Positions 85-25,160 of a DNA stretch of 32,689 nt are shown piece by piece. The stretch comes from Chloroflexota bacterium (GTDB lineage Bacteria > Chloroflexota > Anaerolineae > Anaerolineales > UBA11858): assembly GCA_018648225.1 (NCBI GenBank), contig JABGRQ010000020.1:1-32689 (forward strand), read 5' to 3'. The first letter of the stretch is position 1. Every line of letters begins with the position of its first letter. The notes below the pieces were generated by a model that worked only from the letters and a program-made list of their open reading frames with translations, ran no database searches and was not told where the DNA came from. A program made the position numbers and the translations under genes.

Positions 85-759
85 CTATAGGGTAATGTCC
101 AATAAGCCTTCGGCTACCGCACGCATGTGTTCGGCAGACATTTCACTTAACTTCATAGCCAACTCTAAATAAGGAGTATTTACCGGTTTGGCAATAAAGG
201 CTTTGATTTCAGAAGATAATGCCAAAAATTGCTGAACTGTTTCCTGTTCGAAAGACCAGTTCCCTGCAGGGCCGGTCTGATCGCGTAATTCATCGATGTC
301 TAAAGAAAAAATCCGCGCAAGCTGTTCTAAATCGGGGAGCGGAATTGGGCGATCGCCTCGCTCGTAGGCGCGCACAGTTCCCGAAGTCACTCCCAATTGT
401 TCTGCCAATTCTGCCAATGTTCGGTCTGTTTCCTGACGCGCCATACGCAATCTGGCGGCAATAATCCGGTGGCGGATAGCAATTGCCGATTGAAACCTGA
501 CAGGATCCAATGGTTGCTGACTGACAAGCGCGTCTGCATCCAAAAATTTTCGAACCGGGATATTCAGATAAAAAGCTAATCCTTCTAATTCAGGCAGGGA
601 AGGCGAGTTTTCGCCGCGCTCATAAGTGCCAATGCGGTGCCCGCTCACGCCAATGACTTCAGCGCACTCTTTCATTGTTTTTCCAGCAGCCATGCGCGCA
701 TCACGGAGCAGAACACCGAGCTTCTTTGCGCGTATTTTAATTGCTAACGGAACAGCCAT
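85..759 (-). CDS. Tandem-HTH XRE-family transcriptional regulator
   Basis: This is a probable DNA-binding repressor or activator of 224 aa with two Cro/C1-type helix-turn-helix domains, at about residues 14-73 and 98-159. Each shows the family hallmark: 'IGTYERGE' in the first and 'VRAYERGD' in the second. The C-terminal 60 residues are helical and of unknown role. The open frame begins at a GTG at 765, but AGGAG at 768-772 lies only 2 nt from it and 8 nt from the ATG at 759, so the ATG is chosen. The gene follows the CpaF-type ATPase by 26 bp and is probably the last gene of that operon, so it may regulate the operon or a pilus-like function. Two XRE domains in one chain suggest binding of two half sites without dimerisation, or of a long operator. 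The target is unknown. Confidence 0.88.
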   Translation of the reverse strand: MAVPLAIKIRAKKLGVLLRDARMAAGKTMKECAEVIGVSGHRIGTYERGENSPSLPELEGLAFYLNIPVRKFLDADALVSQQPLDPVRFQSAIAIRHRIIAARLRMARQETDRTLAELAEQLGVTSGTVRAYERGDRPIPLPDLEQLARIFSLDIDELRDQTGPAGNWSFEQETVQQFLALSSEIKAFIAKPVNTPYLELAMKLSEMSAEHMRAVAEGLLDITL

Positions 760-785
760 AATCACAACTCCTATGTGCAGTGCAT

Positions 786-2126
786 TTATCGCCTGCGACG
801 GGGGGCACTGCGCGATTCGGCAAATAAATCTGTAGAGCCAACACCAAAGGTTTGCGGGGTTAAATTAAAACCGGCAGCTTTAAGACGCTCGCCAAACAAA
901 GGACGGATACCGGTAGGTTTAAGTTCGCCAATAATTTTACCTTCGCCATCAACGCCCGTTTGTTCAAATTTAAAAATATCGGTCATCACAATTGTATCGC
1001 CTTCCATCCCGGCGACTTCGGTAATATAGGTGACCTTGCGGGAGCCATCTTTCAGCCGCGATTGTTGCACGATGAGATCCACAGCCGAAGCAATTTGCTC
1101 GCGGATCACTTTCAGCGGCATATTCAGACCCGCCATTAACGACATCGTTTCCAGACGAGAAAGTGCATCGCGCGGGGTATTGGCATGAAGTGTTGTCAGA
1201 GAACCATCGTGGCCGGTATTCATGGCCTGGAGCATATCCAGGGCTTCACCACCGCGTACCTCGCCCACAATAATCCGATCGGGACGCATACGCAAGGAAT
1301 TTCGAACCAGCTCGCGAATCGAAACCGAACCATGACCTTCAACATTGGGCGGTTTGGTTTCCAAGCGAACAACATGATCCTGGTGAAGTTGGAGTTCAGC
1401 GGCGTCTTCGATCGTTACAATGCGTTCATCGGAAGGAATAAAACTGGAGACAATATTCAACAGGGTAGTTTTGCCCGAACCTGTACCCCCCGAAATGACA
1501 ACATTTAACCGGCTCACGACACAGGCACGCAAGAAGTCGGCCATCGATTCAGAAATTGATCCAAATTCAATTAATTGTGCAATCGTCAATTTATCTTTCG
1601 TGAATTTACGGATCGTAACTGTAGGGCCATCAATTGCAACGGGCTGTATAACGGCATTGACGCGTGAGCCATCGGGGAGGCGCGCATCGACCGTGGGCGA
1701 ATCGGCATCAATCCGGCGCCCCAGAGGCATGATAATTTTGTCAATGATCTGGAGAACGTGATTATCATTATCAAATACCACATTCGTTTTTATCAGCTTG
1801 CCCTTTTTCTCAATATAAACATCTCGTGGCCCATTCACCATCACCTCAGAGACATCAATGTCATCCAGCAGCGGCTGAATAGGGCCAAAGCCAAACAAAT
1901 CATCCATAACATCGCGAAAAAGCTGAATGCGCAGTGTTTCGGCCAGCTTCAGATTGGTGCGCTGATAGGCGTTCTGGAGAATCTGCATCGCCACTTCTCG
2001 CCGCTCTGTCGCAGATGGCGGAGAATTTTCAAACGTTTGCGAGACATTTGAAACCAGAAAGGCTTTCAGCTTTTCCAGATCAACATTTTGTGGAGGTTGT
2101 GACTGATTCTGTATGGGCGATGTCAT
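786..2126 (-). CDS. CpaF/TadA-family secretion ATPase
   Basis: This is a 446-aa type II/IV secretion ATPase of the CpaF (TadA) branch, a hexameric cytoplasmic motor that in Tad systems powers pilus assembly. Walker A is GGTGSGKT (residues 213-220). The Asp-box-like 'IEDAAELQL' is at 239-247, the Walker B region '[10 protein letters not shown]' at 285-294, and the His-box 'LTTLHAN' at 310-316. The N-terminal 75 residues match the CpaF N-terminal helical region, followed by '[11 protein letters not shown]'. The C-terminus ends in a run of four arginines. The gene starts 6 bp after the upstream 98-aa gene and is probably cotranscribed with a two-component system. No TadB/TadC platform proteins, prepilin or CpaE are present in the window, so it is an orphan ATPase here. 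Its partner machine must be encoded elsewhere, or the ATPase has another role. Confidence 0.93.
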
Positions 2127-2132
2127 CGCCGA

Positions 2133-2429
2133 TTACCTTGAATCCGAATCGGGCTGTTCGTCAACGGGGCTGAGCCAGACGACATGGTCTAAATTAATCG
2201 TCATAAATTCAGATTGAAAAATTTCTTCTCCACGCGCATTGTAAATCACAGCGTTTGTAACAGCGATGAAACGATCGGATTTGTTCATCTCGTCTTTAAA
2301 GCGCTGACCGGGGCGAACATGGACATCGCCAACAATACGCACGGTCAATGTTTGAATTACAGAGCGCACGCCCTCTTTTGATATCACATCGGTAAAATAT
2401 TTACCCTTATGATCGACATGCAGAGCCAT
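2133..2429 (-). CDS. Conserved small protein of unknown function (DUF6812-like?)
   Basis: This encodes a 98-aa soluble protein of unknown function. The open frame reaches 2465, but GGAGG is placed 8 nt before the ATG at 2429, giving the N-terminus MALHVDHKGKYFTD. The protein has no cysteine, signal peptide or membrane segment. It alternates short hydrophobic strands (VIQTLTVRIVGDVHV, FIAVTNAVIY, FMTINLDHVVWLSP), suggesting a small beta-barrel or sheet fold, and has an acidic, disordered tail. From memory the pattern resembles a DUF6812-type family found next to secretion ATPases in Chloroflexota, but I could not verify that. It lies 38 bp after the response regulator and 6 bp before the CpaF-type ATPase, so it is likely an accessory part of that operon. 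Confidence 0.72.
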   Translation of the reverse strand: MALHVDHKGKYFTDVISKEGVRSVIQTLTVRIVGDVHVRPGQRFKDEMNKSDRFIAVTNAVIYNARGEEIFQSEFMTINLDHVVWLSPVDEQPDSDSR

Positions 2430-2467
2430 AGTTAATTCCTCCTGAACTAAATTGCATTTCGGCAATA

Positions 2468-3160
2468 TTATTCTGGGTACGGCATAGTGTACCCCAAACC
2501 TTGACGGGTCACAATATACAATGGTTTCTTGGGATCATCTTCAAGCTTTTGGCGCAAGCGTGAAATGCTCACCCAGAGGACTTCTTTATCATCGCGATAA
2601 GCCTCACCCCAAACGTTTTCAAGTAACGTTTCAGATGACAGAATTTGCCCTTGATGATGGACGAATTGCAACAACAGGCGATATTCTGTTGCAGAGAGAA
2701 GAATCTCTGTATCGCCTAAAAAAACTTCAGCACGTGCAAAATCAACCCGCAACTGCCCAAAGGTAAAGACGGATTGTGAATATGCGCTATCTGAGAATTG
2801 AGCGCGGCGTAAAACAGCGCGCACGCGCGCCAAAAGTTCGGTGACGGAATACGGCTTGACGATATAATCATCCGCTCCCACATCCAGGCCGCGCACCCGA
2901 TCTCGCTCATCACCACGGGCGGTTACCATGATAATTGGCACATTCGAAAATTTCCGAATTCGCTCACAAGCCTGCAGCCCATCCAGGTCAGGCATCATCA
3001 CATCGAGCAGCACCAGGTTCGGGCGCTGCTCATCCACAATGCCGATAGCATCCTGCCCGTTATTGGCAGTCAACACTGTGTATCCCGCGCTGACCAAATT
3101 GGCTTCCATCAAACGCACATAACGAGGCTCGTCGTCAACTACTAGAATTAGCGCGCTCAT
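2468..3160 (-). CDS. OmpR/PhoB-family response regulator
   Basis: This is a 230-aa two-component response regulator. The receiver domain covers residues 3-115, with acidic pocket D9/D10 in 'LVVDDEP', phospho-acceptor D53 in 'LLDVMMPD', T80 and K102 in 'VKPYS'. A winged-helix DNA-binding domain covers about 128-228 and contains 'LSATEYRLLLQFV' and 'VSISRLRQKLEDDP', typical of the OmpR class. The start codon overlaps the stop of the upstream histidine kinase by 4 bp (ATGA), indicating translational coupling and a cognate pair. It probably controls transcription in response to that kinase; candidate targets include its own operon with the CpaF-type ATPase. Confidence 0.95.
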   Translation of the reverse strand: MSALILVVDDEPRYVRLMEANLVSAGYTVLTANNGQDAIGIVDEQRPNLVLLDVMMPDLDGLQACERIRKFSNVPIIMVTARGDERDRVRGLDVGADDYIVKPYSVTELLARVRAVLRRAQFSDSAYSQSVFTFGQLRVDFARAEVFLGDTEILLSATEYRLLLQFVHHQGQILSSETLLENVWGEAYRDDKEVLWVSISRLRQKLEDDPKKPLYIVTRQGLGYTMPYPE

Positions 3161-4410
3161 ACTTCTCTCTCCTGCTGTTGGGTATTTCGCTTCCGAGGCA
3201 ATAAGATATGAAAGGCTGTACCCTCGCCAATCACAGATTTTGCAAAAATATCTCCCTGATGCGCACGAATAATTTCACGGCAGATAAACAGGCCCAAACC
3301 AGAGCCAGCCGTGCGATTCGTATGCATAGGCAGTCTGTAGATTCGTTTAAATATATCTTCGAGATGTTCATCGGGAATACCTGGCCCCGAATCTTGGATC
3401 ACAATATGCCCATTGTCTGCTTCCCAGGATAAAGATATTGTTACGACCGAATTGGGAGCATACTTTGCAGCATTCGTCATTAAATTATCCAATACTTGAA
3501 CCAAACGGGTAGCATCTACCCACGCCATTTGCGGGGAAGGGTCAATATCCGTTTCAATCGTTAACCGAAAGCCGCGTGTCTGCGCACGCTGCACGAAATC
3601 GTTCAATACAACCGCTAAACGCACTGCCTGAAACTCCATTGGCAAAGTGCCTGCCTGCAAACGCGATGAATCGAGCATAGCATCGATAATTTCAGTCAGG
3701 CGATCCGTTTCTTCATCAATAATCGTCAAAAATTCCCGGCGAGTATTTTCATCCCATTCGGCATCCTGGCGCAGCAAAGACGTAGCATAGCCTTTAATAA
3801 AGCCCAAGGGAGAGCGTAGTTCGTGTGAGACTGTGGCAACAAAGTGTTCCTGCAGCCGATCGAGCCGGCGTTCCGCCTCCAGAGTGGCTACCTGGCTAGC
3901 AAGATATTGCCGCTCCAGAAGTTTTAACACCAAATCAGCGATCAACGCAGCAAAAGCAATTTGCTCATCCAGATAAAGCGGGCCGCCAAAGCGGATAAAT
4001 ACAAGCGCACCATAGGGTTGATTCTGTAGAGCGAGGGGCAGTCCTAAGTAATATACCTGATTTAAGCGTTCATTCTCATGTTGGTATTTGGGCGGTTTGA
4101 TAGCTTCGTGCCGAACAATCTTCTGCTGGTTCTGGAAAACTTCATAAGCTATTTTTTCCCCCCATTCCATATCCGCCTCAATCGTGCGCCCGCGCCCAAC
4201 CGAACGAGCATACGTTGGGATCAAGTTTTGGTCTTTTTGCCGAATATAGAGAATAATATTATCAAAAATAAAGGCCGGTCGGGCCAGGTGGACAATTTCT
4301 CGCAAAGCTGTCTCTAAATTTTCCGCCTGGTTAATGACGCGGCCAATTTCATAAAGAGCTTTATATTCTTCCGGTTCTAATTGTTCGCGTTGGGCCTGAT
4401 GCAGAGACAT
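3157..4410 (-). CDS. GAF-domain sensor histidine kinase
   Basis: This is a 417-aa cytoplasmic histidine kinase with no transmembrane segment. A GAF-like sensory domain spans about residues 27-168. A short coiled coil (170-190) leads into HisKA, with phospho-acceptor H196 in 'VATVSHELRSPLGF'. The HATPase_c domain has an N box with N309/N313 ('DNLMTNAAKYAP'), a G1 box 'DSGPGIPD' at 340-347 and a G2 box 'GSGLGL' at 369-374. All catalytic motifs are intact. The gene overlaps the following response regulator by 4 bp and is therefore its likely partner. A soluble GAF sensor implies an intracellular small-molecule, redox or protein signal; the ligand cannot be read from the sequence. The Shine-Dalgarno sequence is weak. 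Confidence 0.94.
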   Translation of the reverse strand: MSLHQAQREQLEPEEYKALYEIGRVINQAENLETALREIVHLARPAFIFDNIILYIRQKDQNLIPTYARSVGRGRTIEADMEWGEKIAYEVFQNQQKIVRHEAIKPPKYQHENERLNQVYYLGLPLALQNQPYGALVFIRFGGPLYLDEQIAFAALIADLVLKLLERQYLASQVATLEAERRLDRLQEHFVATVSHELRSPLGFIKGYATSLLRQDAEWDENTRREFLTIIDEETDRLTEIIDAMLDSSRLQAGTLPMEFQAVRLAVVLNDFVQRAQTRGFRLTIETDIDPSPQMAWVDATRLVQVLDNLMTNAAKYAPNSVVTISLSWEADNGHIVIQDSGPGIPDEHLEDIFKRIYRLPMHTNRTAGSGLGLFICREIIRAHQGDIFAKSVIGEGTAFHILLPRKRNTQQQEREV

Positions 4411-4487
4411 TAATTACAACCTAATCAGGGTTTTTGCTGCCACAAGTAAATTCCTGTTGTTCGATATATTTCAACGCGGCGTAAGTC

Positions 4488-5654
4488 CTACGAATGATCA
4501 ACTTCCGCTATCGGCAAGGAAAACTCAAAATATGAGCCTTCGCCTACTTTCGAGTGGACAATAATTTTGGAACCATGTCCGGTAATGATCTGCTGAGACA
4601 TCGCCAAACCGAGGCCTGTGCCGCCATAACGTCGTGTCGAAGAACCATCAACCTGATGAAAAGGTTCAAAAATTTCGCTGATATGTTCTTTGGAAATCCC
4701 GATGCCGGTATCAAGAATATATATTTTTACGAAACCACGCTCCATACTGGCTCCCAACTGCACCCGTCCGCCAGATTCGGTAAACTTCACCGCGTTGTCA
4801 ATCAAGTGTAACAACGCCCAAGGCAGCTTTTGTGGATCGGCGCTGACCAAGGGCAAGTTCTGAGAAATTCTCTCTTGATAGATGATTTCTTTTTCTTCAC
4901 ATTTTTTGGATGCTTTAGGGGATACCTCATAAAAAATATCGGCCAAGTTCGTATCTATTAATCGCATATCCAGACTACCCTGTGAATACGCTGAAAACTG
5001 AATTAAATCTTCAATCAGGCCACCCAGACGAATATCGGCCTTTTCCATAACCCGAATAGCGTCAAGCTGTTGAGAATTCAACGGTCCCAAAACTTCTTCA
5101 CCCAACAACTCAATATACCCTCGCAAATGAGTCAATGGTGTACGTAATTCATGCGAGACATTCGAAATAAAATTCGACTTTAGCTGGTTAAGTTCCGCCA
5201 AACGCGTTAATGCATGCTCTAGTTCAACAGTTCGATCGCGAACGCGTTTCTCCAATTCTGCATTTGCGGCCCGAAGAGCCGATTGTAATTGAAGGATTTG
5301 CTCGGTAATCGCCTGATCGAGTGCTTCCCGGCTGATGAGATTTAATTCCAACAAAGCCTGACCAATTAATTTGGGCTGTCCACGATCCGCCATTTTTTTT
5401 TGATATGACAAAGCCTGGAACAATTCATCGGGAGTGAGCAGACCTTGCTCGGTGAGGCTATCTCCCAACCGAGGGACCAATACTTCAGGAGAGAGATGAA
5501 TATCGGGCAGTAGACCGGTCGATACTCTCATTTTTTGTTCAGCCAGAACAGCAGCCAGTGCCAAATTTACGCCACAATGCGCGCATTTTCCTGAACTCGG
5601 ATCAATTGATTGTCCACATTTCGGGCAAGAGATTGTTTCCGCCATAATTCCCAT
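4488..5654 (-). CDS. Histidine kinase with zinc ribbon and MshEN-like domain
   Basis: This is a soluble kinase of about 388 aa with an unusual N-terminus. Residues 10-27 hold a CPxCG/CxHCG zinc ribbon (C10, C13, C24, C27). Residues 62-85 and 96-119 are two 24-residue units resembling the MshEN motif (RLG..L...GL......L...L..Q) of type II secretion and type IV pilus ATPases, some of which bind cyclic-di-GMP. A coiled coil (120-160) connects to HisKA with H168 in 'FISNVSHELRTPL', then HATPase_c with N287 and 'DTGIGIS'/'GGTGLGL'. The open frame extends to 5927, but that extension overlaps the divergent receiver gene and looks noncoding. The start is either the ATG at 5654 or the one at 5645; neither has a good Shine-Dalgarno sequence. 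The gene lies 77 bp upstream of the GAF kinase on the same strand. Confidence 0.9.
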   Translation of the reverse strand: MGIMAETISCPKCGQSIDPSSGKCAHCGVNLALAAVLAEQKMRVSTGLLPDIHLSPEVLVPRLGDSLTEQGLLTPDELFQALSYQKKMADRGQPKLIGQALLELNLISREALDQAITEQILQLQSALRAANAELEKRVRDRTVELEHALTRLAELNQLKSNFISNVSHELRTPLTHLRGYIELLGEEVLGPLNSQQLDAIRVMEKADIRLGGLIEDLIQFSAYSQGSLDMRLIDTNLADIFYEVSPKASKKCEEKEIIYQERISQNLPLVSADPQKLPWALLHLIDNAVKFTESGGRVQLGASMERGFVKIYILDTGIGISKEHISEIFEPFHQVDGSSTRRYGGTGLGLAMSQQIITGHGSKIIVHSKVGEGSYFEFSLPIAEVDHS

Positions 5655-5867
5655 TATTTTTCTGGATAAAATATTTACTATCGCATGTGGGAAATCAGCG
5701 TTCTTTACGAACCACCGAATACCCAATGATGAGTTGGGCCAAGCTCGTTTATCATATCCTTTCTTGGCTGAAGTTGCAAGTGGACATAAGTCCTCCGCCC
5801 CTTGTAAAGTATTTGTAAGGATGTTTCCATTTGGTTTGTATGATAATTTGGGGCACTTGGAGGAAAA

Positions 5868-6251
5868 TTGGAAACCACAAAAACCCTCATTATCGATACA
5901 CAATCGAAAATAACCGAAAATTATCACGAGCTAGAAATACGCGGGTTGTCCGTTTATGTAATCCGTACGCACCAAGAGCTATTTAGTGCCCTATACAACT
6001 TTGCTCCGAATGTCATCATAATCGATTCGGCGGAGCCAGAACAACGAAGGCAATTACTATATGCGAATATTCGTTCCATGAGCCCTGCCCCCATTTTAGT
6101 ACTCTCAGTGATTGATGAACCCGATATTGTTGAAAAAGTACTCGATCATGGCGCAGATGACTATCTGCTAAAGCCTGTCTCGCCCACCCTGCTGACCGCG
6201 CGCATCAAAGCGCTGGCGCGGCGCGCCTATTTCACAAATTCGTTATATTAA
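5868..6251 (+). CDS. Receiver-only (CheY-like) response regulator, partly degenerate
   Basis: This is a 127-aa protein consisting of a single receiver domain. The likely phospho-acceptor is D53 ('VIIIDSAEP') and the conserved lysine is K102 in 'LLKPVSP'. The acidic pocket has only one aspartate (D10 in 'LIIDTQ') instead of the usual pair, and S80 replaces the common threonine. The start is TTG at 5868, supported by GGAGG at 5859-5863; no ATG fits. The C-terminal 'ARIKALARRAYFTNS' resembles the alpha5-linker of the OmpR-type regulator at 2468-3160 ('ARVRAVLRRAQFSDS'), after which the protein stops. It therefore looks like an OmpR-type regulator that has lost its DNA-binding domain. It is divergent from the zinc-ribbon kinase, a plausible partner. 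Confidence 0.82.
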   Translation: METTKTLIIDTQSKITENYHELEIRGLSVYVIRTHQELFSALYNFAPNVIIIDSAEPEQRRQLLYANIRSMSPAPILVLSVIDEPDIVEKVLDHGADDYLLKPVSPTLLTARIKALARRAYFTNSLY

Positions 6252-6396
6252 TCTTCAGTTGTAGAGCTTCCACCTTACAGCCGCGAAAATCCAAATAATT
6301 CATCAATAGGCTTTGTGTTTTTACGCACAAATTATCGCTTTTAATGTAAAATAGGGCATTATTATTATTGCCCTTATGGCTCCGAGGAGGAACAAC

Positions 6397-6693
6397 ATGC
6401 AAACTTGTTCAAAATGCAATGCTCAATCGCCCGACACATCTGCTCAATGCAAAAGTTGTAATGCCGATCTTGGTATTTATTCAGCAACCGCGGTTGCGCT
6501 CAAGAATTTTATAGGTAACAGCCGGGTTCGGAATATTCGTCTGGTCGTGTCGGGAAATGCTTGTCCCGTATGTGCAACTTACGAAGGAACGTATGCCAAA
6601 GACGCTGTGCCGGGCTTGCCCATTGAGGGTTGCTCCAACCCTGAAGGTTGTCATTGTTTTTATGAGCCGATGCTCACCGAACTTTATCCATAA
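6397..6693 (+). CDS. Small zinc-ribbon protein with capsid-protein-like Cys motif
   Basis: This encodes a 98-aa protein of unknown function. The N-terminus is a CxxC-x10-CxxC zinc ribbon (C4, C7, C18, C21). A predicted amphipathic middle leads to a second cysteine-rich module: 'CPVCATYEGTYAKD' (C56, C59), then LP and C79, C85, C87 ('EGCHC'). This second module resembles the C-terminal motif of phage Mu gpF/SPP1 gp7-type head morphogenesis proteins (CPxCxxxdG...LP.H..CrC). No phage genes are nearby, so the likeness may only reflect a shared metal site. The start is the ATG at 6397, preceded by AGGAGG with 6-nt spacing; an in-frame upstream ATG at 6376 has no ribosome binding site. The gene converges on cca across a perfect bidirectional terminator. 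Confidence 0.8.
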   Translation: MQTCSKCNAQSPDTSAQCKSCNADLGIYSATAVALKNFIGNSRVRNIRLVVSGNACPVCATYEGTYAKDAVPGLPIEGCSNPEGCHCFYEPMLTELYP

Positions 6694-12438: not shown

Positions 12439-13217
12439 CCACACTTCATCAAGTAGATCACGAAATTGTATATCAGCGACCTGAGTCATTATCGGATGCT
12501 AATACCCACTATTGCCCTGGATGCACACACGGCGTGGCACACCGGCTGGTGGCTGAAGTACTTGACGAGATGGGCATCCGCGAAAAAACGATTGGCGTAG
12601 CACCAGTCGGCTGTTCGGTTTTCGCATATAAATATTTCAATATGGATTTTGTAGAAGCGGCGCACGGACGCGCCCCGGCGATGGCAACCGGGGTCAAGCG
12701 GGTACTGCCTCAAAGTACTGTCTACACCTATCAGGGCGACGGCGATCTGGCCTCGATTGGCATGGCCGAGATTATGCACGTCGCGGCACGGGGCGAAAAT
12801 ATCACCGTGATCTTCATCAACAACGCCATCTACGGCATGACCGGCGGTCAAATGGCCCCGACAACCCTCCCCGGCATGAAGACAACTTCATCCCCGCTGG
12901 GCCGCGATGTTGAACTCAGCGGCTTCCCCATTCGCATGTCGGAAATGTTGGCTACGATGGACGGCGCGGGGTATATCGCCCGCGGCAGCCTGCACGATGC
13001 CAAGCACATTCGTAAAGCCAAGAAAGCCATCCGGATTGCATTTGAGACACAGGAACGCGGGTTGGGCTTCTCAATGGTAGAACTGCTATCATCATGTCCG
13101 ACGAACTGGAAAGTCACGCCCAATGAGGCGCTTGATTTCATCGCCGAACAAATGGTGCCGGTGTTCCCGCTGGGCGAATTCAAAACCAACCCTGAGCTAG
13201 CCAAATTACGCGTATAG
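12435..13217 (+). CDS. 2-oxoacid:ferredoxin oxidoreductase beta subunit (TPP-binding)
   Basis: This is a 260-aa thiamine diphosphate-binding subunit. 'YCPGCTHG' near residue 26 and the TPP/Mg motif 'GDGDLASIG...[12 protein letters not shown]' mark the family, and 'SSCPTNWK' is near the C-terminus. The frame is open from an earlier ATG at 12396, but the start at 12435 has GGAGG upstream and forms the usual 4-bp overlap with the alpha gene, so coupling is likely. It works only together with alpha, gamma and delta. Confidence 0.94.
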
Positions 13218-13228
13218 GAGAGCAAACA

Positions 13229-13792
13229 ATGACAGAAACCAGCATCATCATCTCCGGCTTTGGCGGGCAAGGGACGCTCTTTTCAGGCCAGGTTTTAGCG
13301 TATGCCGCCCTCGACAACGGTAAAGAAGTCACCTGGATTCCATCCTATGGCCCCGAAATGCGCGGCGGCACCGCGCACTGCACCGTCATCATCTCCGATG
13401 AACCCATTGGCTCTCCGCTCGTGCGCAATCCGGATGTGGCTGTCATACTCAATTTGCCATCTCTGGACAAATATGAATACACTGTCAAGGCGGATGGCGT
13501 GCTGATTGTGAATGCATCCTTGATTAACCGAAAAATCGAGCGCAAGAATATCCGCAATATCTACATCCCAGCCAATGAAATTGCCGAAGAAATCGGTCTA
13601 AGTCGCATGGCAAATATGGTCATGCTCGGCGGGATGATTTACATGAAGCCGGTACTCAACCTGGAAATGGTCAAAGAAGCCTTGAGCGAACATATCCCCT
13701 CGCGCCACCGCCGCACACTGCCGATGAACTTCACGGCAATGGAACGCGGCTACGCCTTCGCGCAGGAGGCGTTTGAAAAAACCGTAGCATAA
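13229..13792 (+). CDS. 2-oxoacid:ferredoxin oxidoreductase gamma subunit
   Basis: This is a 187-aa gamma subunit that contributes to CoA binding and subunit contacts. The glycine-rich start '[20 protein letters not shown]' and '[15 protein letters not shown]' are characteristic. AGGAG lies 9 nt before the ATG, 11 bp after the beta gene. It is the last gene of the operon. Downstream, an imperfect inverted repeat (13812-13888) may act as a transcript end, though it lacks a clean U-run. Confidence 0.95.
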
Positions 13793-13811
13793 AAACAACG
13801 CCCAAGAATAC

Positions 13812-13888
13812 ACGCGAAGGCGCAGAGAAGCAAGGCCGCAAAGAAAAATATGAATCTTTGCAATTATGTTTCTTTGTGCCTTCGCGTT
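13812..13888. repeat. Intergenic imperfect inverted repeat, dispersed-repeat type
   Basis: An arm 'acgcgaaggcgcagagaag' (from 13812) is mirrored by 'ttctttgtgccttcgcgt' (to 13887) across a spacer of about 40 nt, with a few mismatches. The purine-rich 'cgaagg/gcaaag' words resemble intergenic repeats that recur in many environmental bacterial genomes. It may fold into a long hairpin after the oxidoreductase operon. Confidence 0.6.
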
Positions 13889-13918
13889 AAAAAAATTCGC
13901 TCGCAAATAGAATTCGGA

Positions 13919-13924
13919 TATAAT
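13919..13924 (+). promoter_or_regulatory. -10 box for leaderless ligA
   Basis: A perfect TATAAT ends 7 nt before the ligA ATG, and no Shine-Dalgarno sequence is present. Transcription would begin at or next to the ATG. The -35 region (TTCGCT, 17-nt spacing) is weak. Confidence 0.6.
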
Positions 13925-13931
13925 CACCCCC

Positions 13932-16010
13932 ATGAACGATCAACAACTTCACCAACATCTGGAAGAACTGCGTCGCCAGATCGAGTACCACAACTACCAA
14001 TACCATGGTCTCGACCAACCGATCGTTAGCGATTACGAATACGACCAACTTTTGCTGGAACTACGCCAGATCGAAGAGCAGCACCCCGAATGGATCACAC
14101 CGGATTCGCCCAGCCAGCGTGCCGGGGCGCCGGTCGCCGAGAAATTTGAGAAAGTTCATCATCCCGCGCCAATTCTCAGCCTGGGCAACGCCTTTGATGC
14201 CGACGGTGCCCGCGCCTGGCGGGAGCGTATCGCCAAAGTGGACGAGCGCGCCCTGGATGCTGATTTCGTCATCGAACCCAAACTCGACGGTCTAAGCGTG
14301 GTGTTGCATTATCAGGATGGCATCTTCGTTCAAGGCAGTACCCGCGGCGATGGCGAAGTTGGGGAAGTCATAACGGACAATCTTAGAACCATTAAAGCCC
14401 TGCCATTGCGCATCCCTGTGACCGACGACCGACGACCGACGACCGACCGCGGCCCGTCCCCTGTCCCCTATCCCCCGTCTACCCTTGTCGTGCGCGGCGA
14501 AGTCTTCATCCGTCTGTCCGATTTCGAACAATTAAACGCCGAACTAACAGCAGCGGGCGAAAAAACCTACGTCAATCCGCGCAACACCGCGGCTGGAGCC
14601 TTGCGCAACCTCGATCCCGCCGTCACCGCCTCGCGTCCACTGACGTTGCTCATTTATCAGATCGTAGATTGGCAAAACGAACCTTCAACCTTCAACCTTC
14701 AACCCACAACACAAACCGAAACGATCACTTATCTCAAAAAACTCGGCTTCCCCGTCCCTGAAAGTACCCACTGCCGCACTATTGAAGAAGCCATCGCTAT
14801 CCACGGCGAATGGCAAGAAAAACGCGCTACCCTCGACTACGAAATTGACGGTATGGTCATCAAAATCAACGACCACCAGCTTTTCAATGATCTCGGCATC
14901 GTCGGCAAAGACCCGCGCGGCGCGGTGGCTTTCAAATTCCCGGCGCAAGAAGTCACTACCCAACTGCTCGATATCGGCGTCAATGTCGGGCGCACCGGCG
15001 TGCTGACCCCCTACGCCATGCTCGACCCCGTCGAAGTTGGCGGTGTAGTCGTCAAACAGGCCACCCTGCACAATTTTGATTTCATCTTCGAGAAAGACAT
15101 CCGCATCGGCGACCGCGTGCGTATCAAGCGTGCCGGCGATGTGATCCCCTACGTCATCGGCCCCATTGAGGCCGCGCGCCAGGGCAAAGAAAAACCTTAT
15201 ACGCCCCCCGAAACTTGCCCGGCCTGCACACAACCCGTCGAGCGCATCGAGGGCGAAGTCGCCTGGTACTGTGTCAACGCCGCCTGCCCGGCGCAACTTA
15301 TCCGCAACGTGGAGCATTTCGTCTCGCGTGGCGCGATGGATATTGTGGGTATGGGCTTCAAAATTGTGGAACAACTCGTGACCGAGGGTTTGCTTGGCGA
15401 TGTGGCCGATCTCTACACCCTGGAGCGGGATGCGTTGCTCGCTCTGGAGGGGTTCGCGGAAAAGAAAGCTGAGAACCTGCTCGAGGCGATTGTTGTCTCC
15501 AAGGGCAAACCCCTGAGCCGCCTGCTGACCGCCCTGGGGATTCGCGGCATCGGTGAAGTTGTCGCCACGGATTTGGCCGCGCATTATGGCAGCCTGGACT
15601 CCCTCAGCCAGTCCACCCCTGGAGGCTTGCAAACCATCGAGGGCATCGGCCCCAATATTGCTCAGGCGCTAGTCGATTGGTTTGAACGTCCCGCCAACCG
15701 CGCTGTTTTGGAGAAACTGAAATCAAGTGGGGTTTGGCCTTATGGCCCGTCGTCGGTCGTCGGTCGTCCGTCGTCCACCCCCCTCACCGGACTCACCTTT
15801 GTGGTAACAGGCACCCTCACCGGGTTCACGCGCGCGGAAATCAAAACCTTCATTCAAGCCCACGGTGGCAAAGTCACCGGTTCAGTCAGTAATCATACCC
15901 ATTATCTGGTCGCCGGGGAAAAAGCCGGTTCCAAACTCACCAAAGCGCAAGAGCTGGGCGTGAATATCATCAGCGAAACTGAACTACGCCGCATAGTGGG
16001 GGAATCTTAA
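13932..16010 (+). CDS. ligA: NAD-dependent DNA ligase LigA
   Basis: This 692-aa enzyme seals nicks in DNA during replication and repair using NAD+. Domain Ia (1-65) precedes the adenylation domain with lysine nucleophile K117 ('EPKLDGLSV') and 'VRGEVFI'. An OB fold is followed by a four-cysteine zinc finger ('CPACTQPVE', 'YCVNAACPAQ'), four HhH motifs, and a C-terminal BRCT domain (about 618-692, 'FVVTGTLTGFTRAEIK'). Length is slightly above the usual 665-680. Three non-conserved inserts encoded by 7-bp repeats sit at about residues 163-185, 248-263 and 602-617, all at loop or interdomain positions, and the frame is kept. The gene appears leaderless. Confidence 0.97.
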   Translation: MNDQQLHQHLEELRRQIEYHNYQYHGLDQPIVSDYEYDQLLLELRQIEEQHPEWITPDSPSQRAGAPVAEKFEKVHHPAPILSLGNAFDADGARAWRERIAKVDERALDADFVIEPKLDGLSVVLHYQDGIFVQGSTRGDGEVGEVITDNLRTIKALPLRIPVTDDRRPTTDRGPSPVPYPPSTLVVRGEVFIRLSDFEQLNAELTAAGEKTYVNPRNTAAGALRNLDPAVTASRPLTLLIYQIVDWQNEPSTFNLQPTTQTETITYLKKLGFPVPESTHCRTIEEAIAIHGEWQEKRATLDYEIDGMVIKINDHQLFNDLGIVGKDPRGAVAFKFPAQEVTTQLLDIGVNVGRTGVLTPYAMLDPVEVGGVVVKQATLHNFDFIFEKDIRIGDRVRIKRAGDVIPYVIGPIEAARQGKEKPYTPPETCPACTQPVERIEGEVAWYCVNAACPAQLIRNVEHFVSRGAMDIVGMGFKIVEQLVTEGLLGDVADLYTLERDALLALEGFAEKKAENLLEAIVVSKGKPLSRLLTALGIRGIGEVVATDLAAHYGSLDSLSQSTPGGLQTIEGIGPNIAQALVDWFERPANRAVLEKLKSSGVWPYGPSSVVGRPSSTPLTGLTFVVTGTLTGFTRAEIKTFIQAHGGKVTGSVSNHTHYLVAGEKAGSKLTKAQELGVNIISETELRRIVGES
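14421..14483 (+). repeat. Heptanucleotide repeat array 1 inside ligA
   Basis: Four 7-bp units accgacg (last one accgacc) at 14421-14448 are followed, after 7 nt, by four pyrimidine-rich 7-bp units gtcccct, gtcccct, atccccc, gtctacc at 14456-14483. The array is translated in frame between the conserved 'RTIKALPLRIP' and 'LVVRGEVF'. Other bacterial LigA proteins have only a few residues here. Confidence 0.85.
14681..14701 (+). repeat. Heptanucleotide repeat array 2 inside ligA
   Basis: Three perfect tandem copies of the 7-bp unit accttca are followed by a partial copy. They encode part of a non-conserved loop ('NEPSTFNLQPTT') in the adenylation domain. Three units make 21 bp, so the frame is unaffected. 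Confidence 0.85.
15749..15776 (+). repeat. Heptanucleotide repeat array 3 inside ligA
   Basis: Four 7-bp units are present: gtcgtcg, gtcgtcg, gtcgtcc, gtcgtcc. This is the reverse complement of the accgacg unit of array 1, so the same repeat is present in opposite orientation within one gene. It encodes the linker between the HhH region and the BRCT domain. Confidence 0.85.
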
Positions 16011-20991: not shown

Positions 20992-23900
20992 TTAGGGCGT
21001 GCCCGTTCCCTGGATGGAAAATGTATACGGATTCTCGTCGTTATCGTCATTGGCGATACTGATTATCGCTTCGCGCAAACCACTGTCGCTGGGATCAAAC
21101 GTGACCTCAAAGGTGGTTGTGCCTCCCGCGCTGGATACTGGCGTGGTGGCATCGCTGGTCAAGACAAAATCTGCCGCATGGGTGCCGCCAATGACGACAA
21201 TCGGTGTCCCGGAGAGATTCAAATCCACACTACCCGTATTCTGAATGGTGAAGGTATAAACTTGCGAACCACTCGCCACGGAAATATCGCCAAAATCGGT
21301 GTGGTCATCGGCATCGGGCGATGTATCACCACTGGCAATCGAAACCCCATTCCCCAGTACATCCATTTCCGCCGCGGCTCCGGTTCCCGCACCCTGAATT
21401 GAGAAGGTGTACGGATTCTCATCGCCATCATTATTGGCAATGCTAATTGTAGCCTCACGCAAACCGCTATCGCCGGGATTAAAGGTGATTGTGAAGGTCG
21501 TCTCGTTACCCGCGGTGATCGGCGTAGTTGCATCCACCGTTAATGTAAACTCTGCCGCGTGCGTACCGCCAATTGTCACAGCAGGCGAATTACTCAGCGT
21601 CAAATCTGCCGTGCCTGTATTCTCAATGGTGAACGTGCGGCTGATGGTAGCCCCATTCGTGTCGGCATTGCCAAAATCAGTGTGATCACCAGCCTCGGGC
21701 GTAGTATCGCCACTGATTATGGTCGTATCGTTGCCAAGTATATCCATCTCGGGAGCAAGCGCTCCCACCCCAACAATCTGAATATCGTAGGGGTTCTCAT
21801 CCGAATCAGTATTGGTAATATCTATATCAAAACTGAACGCGCCTAAAGCATCCACATTGAAAGTGAAATCCAGCACGTCGCTGCCACCCGCTGGCACATC
21901 AATCGGCAGCGATGAGATCAGCGTGAAACTGCTGGCATTGCTAAGATTATCGGCGGCAACGGCGCTCACACTAAGTTGAGCTGAACCTGCCGAATTATCC
22001 AGAATATAGCGCACAGAAACGGTTCCCACAGCCTGATTGCCGATGTCATCCGTGCTGTTATCGGCAATTGATGAGACAACCGGGCGCTGCACATCTATCT
22101 CTGCGGCGGTAGTTCCGGCACAGGCGAGTTGGAAATCATAGGGATTCTCATTCGCGTCATTATTGGCAATCGATACGGTGGCCGAAAGCGCGCCTGCCCC
22201 CGAGGGCGCACAACGCACCACAAAGGTCAGATCGCCCCCCCCGGCGGCGATAGTGGCACTTCCCGGTTGTGTTTGTACCGAGAAATCACCAGAGCCAGAT
22301 AAGGTTACAACCGCGGGGAAATCCGACAAGGTCAATGTATCGGTGCCTTCGTTCTGGATCGTGAATGTACGGTCAAGATGCCCGCCGACACTGATATTGC
22401 CAAAGTCGGTGTGATCGGCGGCATCGGGCGATACGTCGCCATCGGCGATCGAAACCACATTGCCTTCCACATCCATTTCGGGCTTGGGGGTTGGCGCAAA
22501 GGTAGCGGAACATGTCTTGTCGCTGCTCATCGTCAAAATCCCCGACAGATTGCTGCCAAACGCGGCGCAGTCGCCGCCCCAGCCCACAAAGCCAGAAGCC
22601 GCATCTACGGTAACGTTCAACGTCACGGTATCATCGAGGGCAAAACCGGTATCACAACGCGTGGCCGGGCAGTTAAGTTGCCCCTCAGAGGGTGTGCCCC
22701 CCGTGGTCGTGATCGCGTCTACGCCCGTGTTTCCAGACACGCTGACAAGCAGCACCGGAATGACAATATTGACACCCAAAGCCGGAGAACTTCCGCTGCC
22801 ATTCCCTGCCACATCCACCTGGGCTGCTGTGATATTATGTGCGCCTTCACTCAAGACGCTGGTCAGCGTGATGTCAAATGCGCCGCTGCTACACGTTCCG
22901 GTCGGAGCCAAAATTCCATTGACCGAACTACTCAGCGTAACGGTAGCCCCGCTCTCACATGAGCCGGTGAATTGGGGCGTGGTGTCGCTGGTGATATTAT
23001 CACTGTTTGAAGCGCCCGTATCGCTACCCGAAGCCAGATCGGGTGTACCGGGCGCGGCCGGGGCGATCAAATCAATCGTAATGCTCAACCCACCGGAAGC
23101 CGAACTCGTAAAGCCTTCGGGATTGGTGGCTTTGGCCGTAATGCTGTGCGGATCCTGACTCAGGATGGTAGTAATCGTAATATCATAGTTTCCAGAAGCG
23201 CATAGCGTGTTTGCAGGCACCAGCGCGCCGGTGAGATTGCTGCTTAGATTAATCTTGTCACCAGTCACACAAGCGCCAGTAAAGCGCGGCGTGGTGTCGT
23301 TGGTGATATTATCTGAATTTGATGCACCGGTATCGCTCTCCGGATGCATATCAGGAGTGCCGGGCGCGGTTGGTGTGGCGGCCTGCACTGTAATACCCAG
23401 CGCAGCAGACGCGGTGGAGAGATTACCTGCCAGGTCTCTGGCTTTTGCCGAGATATTGTGCGTATTCAGGGTAAGGGTGCTGGTTACGGTCATATCATAG
23501 CCACCACCCGAACAAAGCACATCGGTGGGGTTCAACTGTCCATCCGTACTACTCGACAGGGTGAGATAATCGCCGCTCGTACAGGTTCCTGTAAATTGTG
23601 GGGTGGTGTCGCTGGTGATATTGTCAGAATTTGAAGCGCCAGTATCGCTGCCTGCGGCCAGATCGGGGGTGCCAGGTGCGGCGGGCGCAATCGTATCGAC
23701 GGTTACGCTCAAAACGCCCGAACCCGGACTGCTGTTCCCGGCGGTATCAATGGCCGCGGCAGTGATATTATGCACAACTTCACTTAGCAAGCTGCTAACC
23801 ACAATATCATAGGCGTTATTCGCGCACGTGTAATTGGAGGGCAATAAAACGCCGCCAACACTGCTGTTGAGAACAATCCGGTCGCCGGTGGAGCATGTGC

Positions 23901-25110
23901 CGACGAATTGCGGCGTGGCGTCATTGGTGACATTGTCGGTGTTCGAAATACCGCTATCGCTGCCTGCGGCCAGATCGGGGGTGCCCGGCGTGGGGGGTAG
24001 GCTGGTGTCGACTGTCAGAGTCAGGCCCAGGGAGTTGAACGAATTTCCAGCCGCGTTGACCGCGCGGGCCGAAATCGAGTGTACCCCTTCACTGAGTGCG
24101 CTCGTCACAGTAATATCATAACGTCCATCCGCACAACCGCGGGTGGGCGACAAATCCCCATTCAGCGAGCTATGAATAACAATCACATCCCCCGATGTAC
24201 ACAGACCCGCGAATTGGGGCGTGGTGTCGTTGGTGATATTATCGGTATTTGAGATGCCTGTGTCGCTGCCCGCGGCCAGATCGGGCGTGCCAGGAGCCGA
24301 TGGTGCCGCCGTCTCGACCGTCATAATCAGGCCCGCAGACATACTCGAATTTCCAGCCGCGTCCATTGCTTTGGCAGAAATCGTGTGGGTGACTTCGGAA
24401 AGATTGCTGGTGAGGTTTATATCATAACCATTCACTGCACAGGTAATTGGAGGCAACTGATCCCCATCCACCGAACTGTGAATTGTAATCTGATCGTCTT
24501 GCGTGCAAATGCCAGTAAACTGCGGATTTATATCGCTGGTGATATTGTCTGCATTTGAGGCGCCAGTATCGCTGCCGGGCGCCAGATCGGGCGTTCCGGG
24601 TGCTGTGGGCGGGGTTGTATCCATCGTCAGGTTCAACCCCAAAGAAGCCGGACTGCTATTACCACTCGCATCGCTGGCGGTTGCGGTGATGTTGTGCGCG
24701 CCATCGCCGAGGGCGCTGGTCAGGGTTATATCATAATGCCCACCCGCGCAAACTACATCTGCCGGGGCCAATAACCCATTGATGCTGCTGGTGATGCTGA
24801 TTTTCTCGCCATCGGTACAGGTTCCGGTGAAACGCGGCGTGGTGATATTGGTAATATTATCTGCATTGGAAATCCCCGAGTCACTCTCAACAGCCAAATC
24901 TGGCGCGCCGGGCGCAGCGAGTGAACCGCCAGAAGAGAGCGGGTCAATGGTACTGACGGGTGTGGGGGTATTCGCAGGCGAAACCTTCGGTGTGGCATAG
25001 TTAGATAATTGATACACAATCAGGCCAATTGCCACACAGGCTGTAATGCCTAATAAAGCCAAGAGAATTGTAAGGGCGGTTTTCTCGCCACGGGTGAGAT
25101 TCTTCAACAT
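20992..25110 (-). CDS. Giant membrane-anchored repeat protein (Ig-like, InlB-like, choice-of-anchor D)
   Basis: This is a 1372-aa predicted surface protein. A basic N-terminus and one hydrophobic helix (about residues 12-35) form a signal anchor, followed by a Pro/Thr-rich linker. Seven Ig-like repeats of about 104 aa follow (about 66-785). Each begins with a variant of 'APGTPDLAAGSDTG', then 'DNIT' and 'TPQFTG', with a conserved cysteine pair likely to form a disulfide. A divergent InlB-type domain (about 790-880, 'GFVGWGGDCAAF', 'DKTCSATF') comes next. Four units of about 120 aa resembling choice-of-anchor-D/ASH domains ('HTDFG', 'FTIQNTG', 'SIANNDGDENPYTFSI') close the protein, which ends right after the last. 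AGGT 6 nt before the ATG at 25110 favours this over a GTG at 25125. It probably acts in adhesion or as a cell-surface scaffold. Confidence 0.88.
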   Translation of the reverse strand: MLKNLTRGEKTALTILLALLGITACVAIGLIVYQLSNYATPKVSPANTPTPVSTIDPLSSGGSLAAPGAPDLAVESDSGISNADNITNITTPRFTGTCTDGEKISITSSINGLLAPADVVCAGGHYDITLTSALGDGAHNITATASDASGNSSPASLGLNLTMDTTPPTAPGTPDLAPGSDTGASNADNITSDINPQFTGICTQDDQITIHSSVDGDQLPPITCAVNGYDINLTSNLSEVTHTISAKAMDAAGNSSMSAGLIMTVETAAPSAPGTPDLAAGSDTGISNTDNITNDTTPQFAGLCTSGDVIVIHSSLNGDLSPTRGCADGRYDITVTSALSEGVHSISARAVNAAGNSFNSLGLTLTVDTSLPPTPGTPDLAAGSDSGISNTDNVTNDATPQFVGTCSTGDRIVLNSSVGGVLLPSNYTCANNAYDIVVSSLLSEVVHNITAAAIDTAGNSSPGSGVLSVTVDTIAPAAPGTPDLAAGSDTGASNSDNITSDTTPQFTGTCTSGDYLTLSSSTDGQLNPTDVLCSGGGYDMTVTSTLTLNTHNISAKARDLAGNLSTASAALGITVQAATPTAPGTPDMHPESDTGASNSDNITNDTTPRFTGACVTGDKINLSSNLTGALVPANTLCASGNYDITITTILSQDPHSITAKATNPEGFTSSASGGLSITIDLIAPAAPGTPDLASGSDTGASNSDNITSDTTPQFTGSCESGATVTLSSSVNGILAPTGTCSSGAFDITLTSVLSEGAHNITAAQVDVAGNGSGSSPALGVNIVIPVLLVSVSGNTGVDAITTTGGTPSEGQLNCPATRCDTGFALDDTVTLNVTVDAASGFVGWGGDCAAFGSNLSGILTMSSDKTCSATFAPTPKPEMDVEGNVVSIADGDVSPDAADHTDFGNISVGGHLDRTFTIQNEGTDTLTLSDFPAVVTLSGSGDFSVQTQPGSATIAAGGGDLTFVVRCAPSGAGALSATVSIANNDANENPYDFQLACAGTTAAEIDVQRPVVSSIADNSTDDIGNQAVGTVSVRYILDNSAGSAQLSVSAVAADNLSNASSFTLISSLPIDVPAGGSDVLDFTFNVDALGAFSFDIDITNTDSDENPYDIQIVGVGALAPEMDILGNDTTIISGDTTPEAGDHTDFGNADTNGATISRTFTIENTGTADLTLSNSPAVTIGGTHAAEFTLTVDATTPITAGNETTFTITFNPGDSGLREATISIANNDGDENPYTFSIQGAGTGAAAEMDVLGNGVSIASGDTSPDADDHTDFGDISVASGSQVYTFTIQNTGSVDLNLSGTPIVVIGGTHAADFVLTSDATTPVSSAGGTTTFEVTFDPSDSGLREAIISIANDDNDENPYTFSIQGTGTP
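21000..22470 (-). repeat. Four tandem ~120-residue choice-of-anchor-D-type units
   Basis: This is the coding repeat at the 3' end of the giant protein gene. Units begin with 'EMDVEGN', 'EIDVQRP', 'EMDILGN' and 'EMDVLGN'. Units 3 and 4 are the closest pair (both contain 'GGTHAA', 'FTIT/FEVTF', 'DSGLREA'), suggesting recent duplication. Unit 2 is the most divergent. Confidence 0.8.
22770..24915 (-). repeat. Seven tandem ~104-residue Ig-like units
   Basis: Coding repeats of about 310 bp each encode seven similar Ig-like domains in the giant protein. They differ by many substitutions, so they are not recent identical copies. The conserved core is 'PGTPDL..SDTG.SN.DNIT', with Asp/Asn positions suitable for calcium binding. 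Confidence 0.85.
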
Positions 25111-25160
25111 ATGCTTACCTGCCACTTTATCGTTTGCATTCGATAGAATTCGACGATTAG

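Follow-up and report, generated by a model that had tools for sequence, protein, structure and literature searches.

A histidine kinase of Anaerolineales with a predicted MshEN_N sensor domain and a probable response to c-di-GMP

CckA of Caulobacter is reportedly a histidine kinase with activity set by c-di-GMP. In ShkA, another Caulobacter histidine kinase set by this nucleotide, c-di-GMP is bound in a pseudo-receiver domain (PMC7010744). The MshEN domain is otherwise best known from pilus and secretion ATPases, such as VcMshE, PilB and Thermus PilF. In VcMshE, the spacer between the two motifs of the domain is 5 residues long, and an isolated MshEN_N, devoid of the C-terminal half, binds c-di-GMP with a KD of 0.35 uM (PMC5013675). 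The domain GSPII-B of PilF, with a natural Leu at position 1 of unit 2, has a KD of 6 nM, and the substitution L196R weakens its binding fourfold (PMC11731258). Fusions of MshEN to CheA, REC (such as Bd2402), HD-GYP, cyclase and Ser/Thr kinase have been described, the route from ligand binding to output being called obscure, and a fusion to a classical HisKA-HATPase kinase is not named in the main text of that work (PMC5013675).

The window, that is the whole analysed stretch of 32,689 nucleotides, contains a kinase gene whose product can be set beside both groups. With VcMshE, PilF GSPII-B and PilB it shares two 24-residue units, a predicted four-helix fold, and the Arg/Lys/Leu, Leu-Gly, Leu cluster and Gln positions; however, it lacks the C-terminal MshEN subdomain, has a spacer of 10 residues instead of 5 and Val/Ile in place of the final Leu in unit 2, and its sensor is joined to a HisKA kinase, not to an ATPase. 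As in the signalling fusions (PMC5013675), MshEN appears here on the input side of a signalling protein. The likeness to ShkA and CckA lies in the control of a histidine kinase by c-di-GMP, as proposed here; in contrast to ShkA, the kinase has no receiver domain by Pfam, and the ligand would be bound by an N-terminal MshEN_N in line with the DHp helix. No description of an MshEN_N-HisKA fusion was found in literature searches of openly readable main texts; the domain is known, and the fusion is, within that scope, new. With moderate confidence, based on sequence and structure models, we regard the protein as a cytosolic, soluble, c-di-GMP-responsive histidine kinase with a minimal MshEN_N sensor and the OmpR-type regulator of its operon as the target. 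If true, the kinase would be a candidate c-di-GMP receptor, with its target, for Anaerolineales, for which literature searches seem to show none, and a sensor helix running straight into the phospho-acceptor helix would make a simple soluble system for measuring MshEN coupling.

The features of the locus and of the kinase are as follows:

85..765, minus strand: protein with two XRE-type HTH domains, the most constant neighbour (same strand in 87 loci)
786..2126, minus strand: CpaF-type ATPase (T2SSE 2.5e-67)
2133..2465, minus strand: DUF6812 protein, start codon uncertain (PF20660 5.8e-17)
2468..3160, minus strand: OmpR-family response regulator (Response_reg and Trans_reg_C; neighbour in 73 loci)
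3157..4410, minus strand: GAF-HisKA-HATPase kinase, second in the putative operon (neighbour on the same strand in 71 loci)
4488..5654, minus strand: MshEN_N-HisKA-HATPase histidine kinase, 388 aa, by open reading frame and Pfam domains (ATG at 5645 as an alternative start)
4506..4838, minus strand: HATPase_c, residues 273-383 (Pfam 2e-23)
4989..5180, minus strand: HisKA (DHp), residues 159-222 (Pfam 1.9e-15)
5181..5297, minus strand: coiled-coil linker, residues 120-158 (full-length AlphaFold model)
5298..5369, minus strand: unit 2, residues 96-119, LIGQALLELNLISREALDQAITEQ, helix a3 plus the beginning of a4 (motif conservation in 102 orthologues)
5400..5471, minus strand: unit 1, residues 62-85, RLGDSLTEQGLLTPDELFQALSYQ, helices a1-a2 (motif of PMC5013675)
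5562..5639, minus strand: zinc ribbon, residues 6-31, with Cys 10, 13, 24 and 27 (Pfam Zn_ribbon_3 1.6e-6)
5868..6251, plus strand: divergent stand-alone receiver-domain protein (Response_reg 2.3e-10)

The open frame spans exactly 4488-5654 and is translated into 388 residues without stops, laid out as a zinc ribbon, the two units, a coil, HisKA and HATPase. Thus, the coordinates, the zinc ribbon, the two 24-residue units and HisKA of the original prediction, which had been made from the letters alone and named no strand, are borne out by the frame and Pfam, on the minus strand. The phospho-acceptor H168 is conserved in 101 of the 102 kinase orthologues, and the N and G boxes of a HisKA-type kinase are present as invariant alignment columns (N287, D315-x-G-x-G and G345-x-G-x-G). 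The two units, R62-LGDSLTEQGLLTPDELFQALSYQ-85 and L96-IGQALLELNLISREALDQAITEQ-119, agree with each other at 8 of their 24 positions (shuffle p=0.0015). The four cysteines of the zinc ribbon occur in 72-73 of 102 orthologues, the remaining ones being without that region; since it is thereby missing in about 30%, the core function does not depend on the ribbon. A scan of 4300-6000 for promoters and terminators gave signals no more than in shuffles. A 105-residue protein (window 6376-6693, plus strand), a divergent neighbour in about 23 loci, opens with two CxxC pairs and then an alanine-rich helix, a start that resembles the kinase N-terminus, and the two may possibly share a zinc-ribbon localisation module.

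The Pfam model MshEN (PF05157) has no match in the kinase at E<=10, nor anywhere in the genome by the Pfam/NCBIfam scan. In a glycosyltransferase with a canonical domain (L045), PF05157 matches solely the stretch after the repeats, and it misses the kinase because the model covers the C-terminal subdomain, which the kinase lacks. The Pfam model is therefore a blind spot, in which proteins with the ligand-binding half alone go undetected. The profile of 25 orthologue sensor domains, when compared with solved structures, matched 14 chains at E<0.001, all 14 of them MshEN domains, including PilF (4e-16), VcMshE (5htl, 2.7e-8) and PilB (9e-8). In the reverse direction, a profile built from MshEN_N of eight canonical proteins, glycosyltransferases and others, matched kinase residues 62-119 over the full model length with E=2e-6, the best unrelated ORF having E=0.03. 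Pfam-MshEN proteins fetched independently of the kinase were also recovered by the kinase profile (L062, for example, with 7e-12), and the profile-profile comparison of the sensor with MshEN_N by hhalign gave P=7e-17 and a probability of 98.8%. The AlphaFold model of the sensor (pLDDT 80) has four helices, at 10-16, 22-37, 44-50 and 56-96 in model numbering, and its best five Foldseek matches are the c-di-GMP-bound MshE/PilF structures, with an rmsd of 0.9-2.2 A and a probability of 1.00; for 5htl_B, the chain of the same four-helix fold, the rmsd is 0.9 A (probability 1.00). The Foldseek E-values of 0.02-0.07 are modest because the domain is short. The MshEN similarity, for which profile comparison had been suggested as a check, is thus sustained by profiles and structure for MshEN_N, but not by a match to PF05157; judged from sequence and model, it is only the N-terminal, predicted ligand-binding half (MshEN_N) to which the MshEN reading applies.

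In the proposed mechanism, the two 24-residue units would form the four helices of a minimal sensor that binds one c-di-GMP per module, each guanine being clamped by the Leu cluster together with the first residue of the unit (Arg62 in unit 1 and Leu96 in unit 2), and Gln85 and Gln119 would hold the ribose/phosphate. The ligand would close the two units and shift the continuous sensor-DHp helix, thereby changing the kinase/phosphatase balance in one direction or the other. In the full-length AlphaFold model (pLDDT 82.8), helix 109-185 is unbroken from unit 2 to His168. Phosphate would then pass from the kinase to the OmpR-type regulator encoded in its operon, which would also be served by the GAF kinase, and a c-di-GMP signal would probably be turned into gene regulation via this neighbouring two-component regulator. 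The domains, the homology with MshEN_N, the retained contact positions, the modelled fold and the constancy of the gene order are results; the ligand binding, the coupling, the direction of the effect and the target are the parts of this explanation that we infer.

Across 102 orthologues, unit 1 retains R/K62 (102/102), G64 (102/102), L78 (101/102), L82 (101/102) and Q85 (95/102), and unit 2 retains G98 (102/102), L112 (97/102) and Q119 (89/102), with Gln119 lost in 13 orthologues, in some clades. Position 96 is Leu in 78 and Arg in 16 orthologues, Val/Ile replaces the last Leu of unit 2, which corresponds to Leu58, in nearly every orthologue, and the mid Gly of unit 2 is Asn/Lys in many. All 12 contact positions lie within the accepted residue sets, which were chosen by the analyst from PMC5013675 and PMC11731258 with conservative changes allowed, in 72 of the 102, the kinase of the window included, and one position is missed in 24. 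The motif (R/K/L)LGxx(L/V/I)2xxG(L/V/I)2xxxxLxxxLxxQ occurs twice, with departures from the strict form in the kinase at Thr68 (position 7 of unit 1, where the motif calls for Leu/Val/Ile), Ile97, Asn105 and Ile116; Asn105 and Ile116 are real departures at the sequence level.

An MshEN_N fold may also be retained for protein docking, for homodimer formation or for another ligand, without any c-di-GMP sensing, and this alternative, although unlikely, carries some weight. Non-binding degenerate MshEN domains do exist, namely those of XpsE (PMC5013675) and PilF GSPII-A, and the spacer of 10, Ile/Val at the Leu58 position and Asn105 would fit with such a loss. However, the XpsE loss substitutions (G11V, L29R, R38G, G40L, L54H, Q61V) are all absent from the kinase, and the mean top-residue frequency in the 102 orthologues is 0.87 at the contact positions vs 0.57 at the other motif positions, so that the conservation of ligand contacts, also set as a check by the original prediction, was found as anticipated. 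The MshEN spacing claimed there was not found: the spacer is 10 in the kinase and in 90 of the 102 orthologues, vs 5 in VcMshE (PMC5013675). The linker length is treated here as secondary, since the solved PilB 5zfr, too, aligns with more linker residues than VcMshE. Unit 2 does carry Leu for the first Arg and Asn for the mid Gly, changes by which binding might be altered according to the original prediction; however, Leu in place of that Arg belongs to the 6 nM binder PilF GSPII-B, so Leu96 is compatible with strong binding, and its candidacy as a weakener of binding was rejected on those data, L196R included (PMC11731258).

Turning to the nucleotide itself, the original prediction called c-di-GMP sensing plausible, and the genome, with 12 GGDEF and 6 HD_5/HD-GYP-type domains, supports it as such; no EAL phosphodiesterases were found in the domain inventory, by which the genome would be able both to make and to degrade c-di-GMP. 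The kinase is absent from all 23 GGDEF-less relatives and present in 107 of the 128 genomes with GGDEF (Fisher p 2e-15, not corrected for kinship). The double-HTH gene, which 119 genomes possess but not one of the GGDEF-less genomes listed, has a co-occurrence as strong as that of the kinase, and the GGDEF-less relatives have few kinases of any kind. The co-occurrence was therefore downgraded as proof of c-di-GMP sensing, with which it is consistent but for which it is not specific.

The putative operon starts with the kinase, which is followed by the GAF kinase, the OmpR regulator, DUF6812, CpaF and the double-HTH protein; in the window these genes lie close together. The complete order occurs in 35 of the 100 scored loci and shorter versions in most others, these counts being lower bounds, as many loci stop at contig edges. 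Under preservation of the regulator, one or the other kinase has been lost in some lineages: in the f7 (L085, L091, L093) and f5-g30 (L107, L117) genomes the GAF kinase is missing and the MshEN_N kinase is directly followed by the regulator, and in f1-g4 (L230-L236) the GAF kinase, the regulator and the double-HTH gene are kept with no MshEN_N kinase beside. Hence, both kinases probably act on the same OmpR regulator. In 13 loci the double-HTH gene alone follows the kinase, with no regulator near, and the target may therefore differ by lineage. It is distinctly unlikely that the c-di-GMP-responsive kinase has instead the divergent receiver (5868-6251) as its partner, in a phosphorelay-like manner, and that the OmpR regulator is served by the GAF kinase alone. 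Such a partnership would agree with the presence of the receiver upstream in about 30 loci, with the acceptor Asp retained in 28 of 31 relatives, and with the 4-base overlap of the GAF kinase and OmpR regulator genes, but in the f1-g4 genomes, which lack the MshEN_N kinase, the divergent receiver still adjoins the GAF kinase, and in the f7 genomes the kinase adjoins the OmpR regulator without any GAF kinase.

As regards the CpaF-type ATPase, the original prediction placed the kinase next to its operon and regarded it as plausible that the kinase controls a secretion motor. CpaF does lie downstream in the same putative operon, but about half of the loci are without it, the kinase and the double-HTH protein being kept, and no membrane-platform (T2SSF) genes occur near CpaF in this genome, which has five T2SSE ATPases and its T2SSF genes only on contig C26, beside a different ATPase. 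Support for the control of a secretion motor, a possible role, is therefore weak, and no evidence was found for the suggested sensing of the pilus state. A contact-based sensing of the CpaF motor or pilus state by the kinase, coupled with control of this motor, is thus very improbable, for all the 49 loci with a shared operon and the common occurrence of MshEN in such ATPases, as MshEN is here the kinase's own sensor domain and no evidence for contact with the ATPase. Two tandem CpaF-type ATPase genes were also observed on contig C98 of genome G000 (13149-15312; L172, L173), again a contig without T2SSF genes. A reading of the two units as an amphipathic helical linker of chance-like origin, without MshEN ancestry, for which the failed Pfam match might speak, is practically out of the question, being contradicted already by the profile, hhalign and structure matches, which all point to MshEN_N, and by the start of the Pfam model only after the repeats in L045.

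With an N-terminal query, the kinase was found in 107 of 151 genomes, comprising the genome of the window and 150 relatives of the same order, which is Anaerolineales by the named records, including Thermanaerothrix daxensis, Ornatilinea apprima and Bellilinea caldifistulae. In a 201-genome sample of the phylum, the full sensor-plus-coil profile matched only in this order, with isolated sensor-like units elsewhere. Four Desulfobacterota/Syntrophus MAGs (L223, L224, L225, L227) carry kinase copies without the operon, at 47-50% over the sensor, and these deltaproteobacterial copies represent either transfer between phyla or mis-binned contigs. Tentatively, the c-di-GMP-responsive kinase may be extended to an order-wide relay, in which a Leu-type, possibly high-affinity MshEN_N in one helix with HisKA, and an OmpR regulator common with the GAF kinase, would constitute a main c-di-GMP read-out of Anaerolineales.

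Units similar to MshEN_N were also observed in CheA-like proteins of Anaerolineales (L031-L038, L049), where they separate the Hpt part from the kinase core and where Pro or Leu often replaces the Arg in one unit, and the small TPR-type proteins of family f10 (L040, L041, L043, L044, L048), which end with an MshEN_N module, are candidate stand-alone c-di-GMP adaptors. Among the other genes of the window, that of ribosomal protein L31 (9672-10145, minus strand; L31 1.2e-28) encodes a C-terminal domain similar to that of the RNA polymerase alpha subunit (PF03118, 3.5e-9), and the L31 proteins adjoining the kinase in relatives are also longer. A 1377-residue protein (20992-25125, minus strand), with seven Big_13 bacterial Ig-like and HYDIN-type Ig-like domains, is probably a surface protein.
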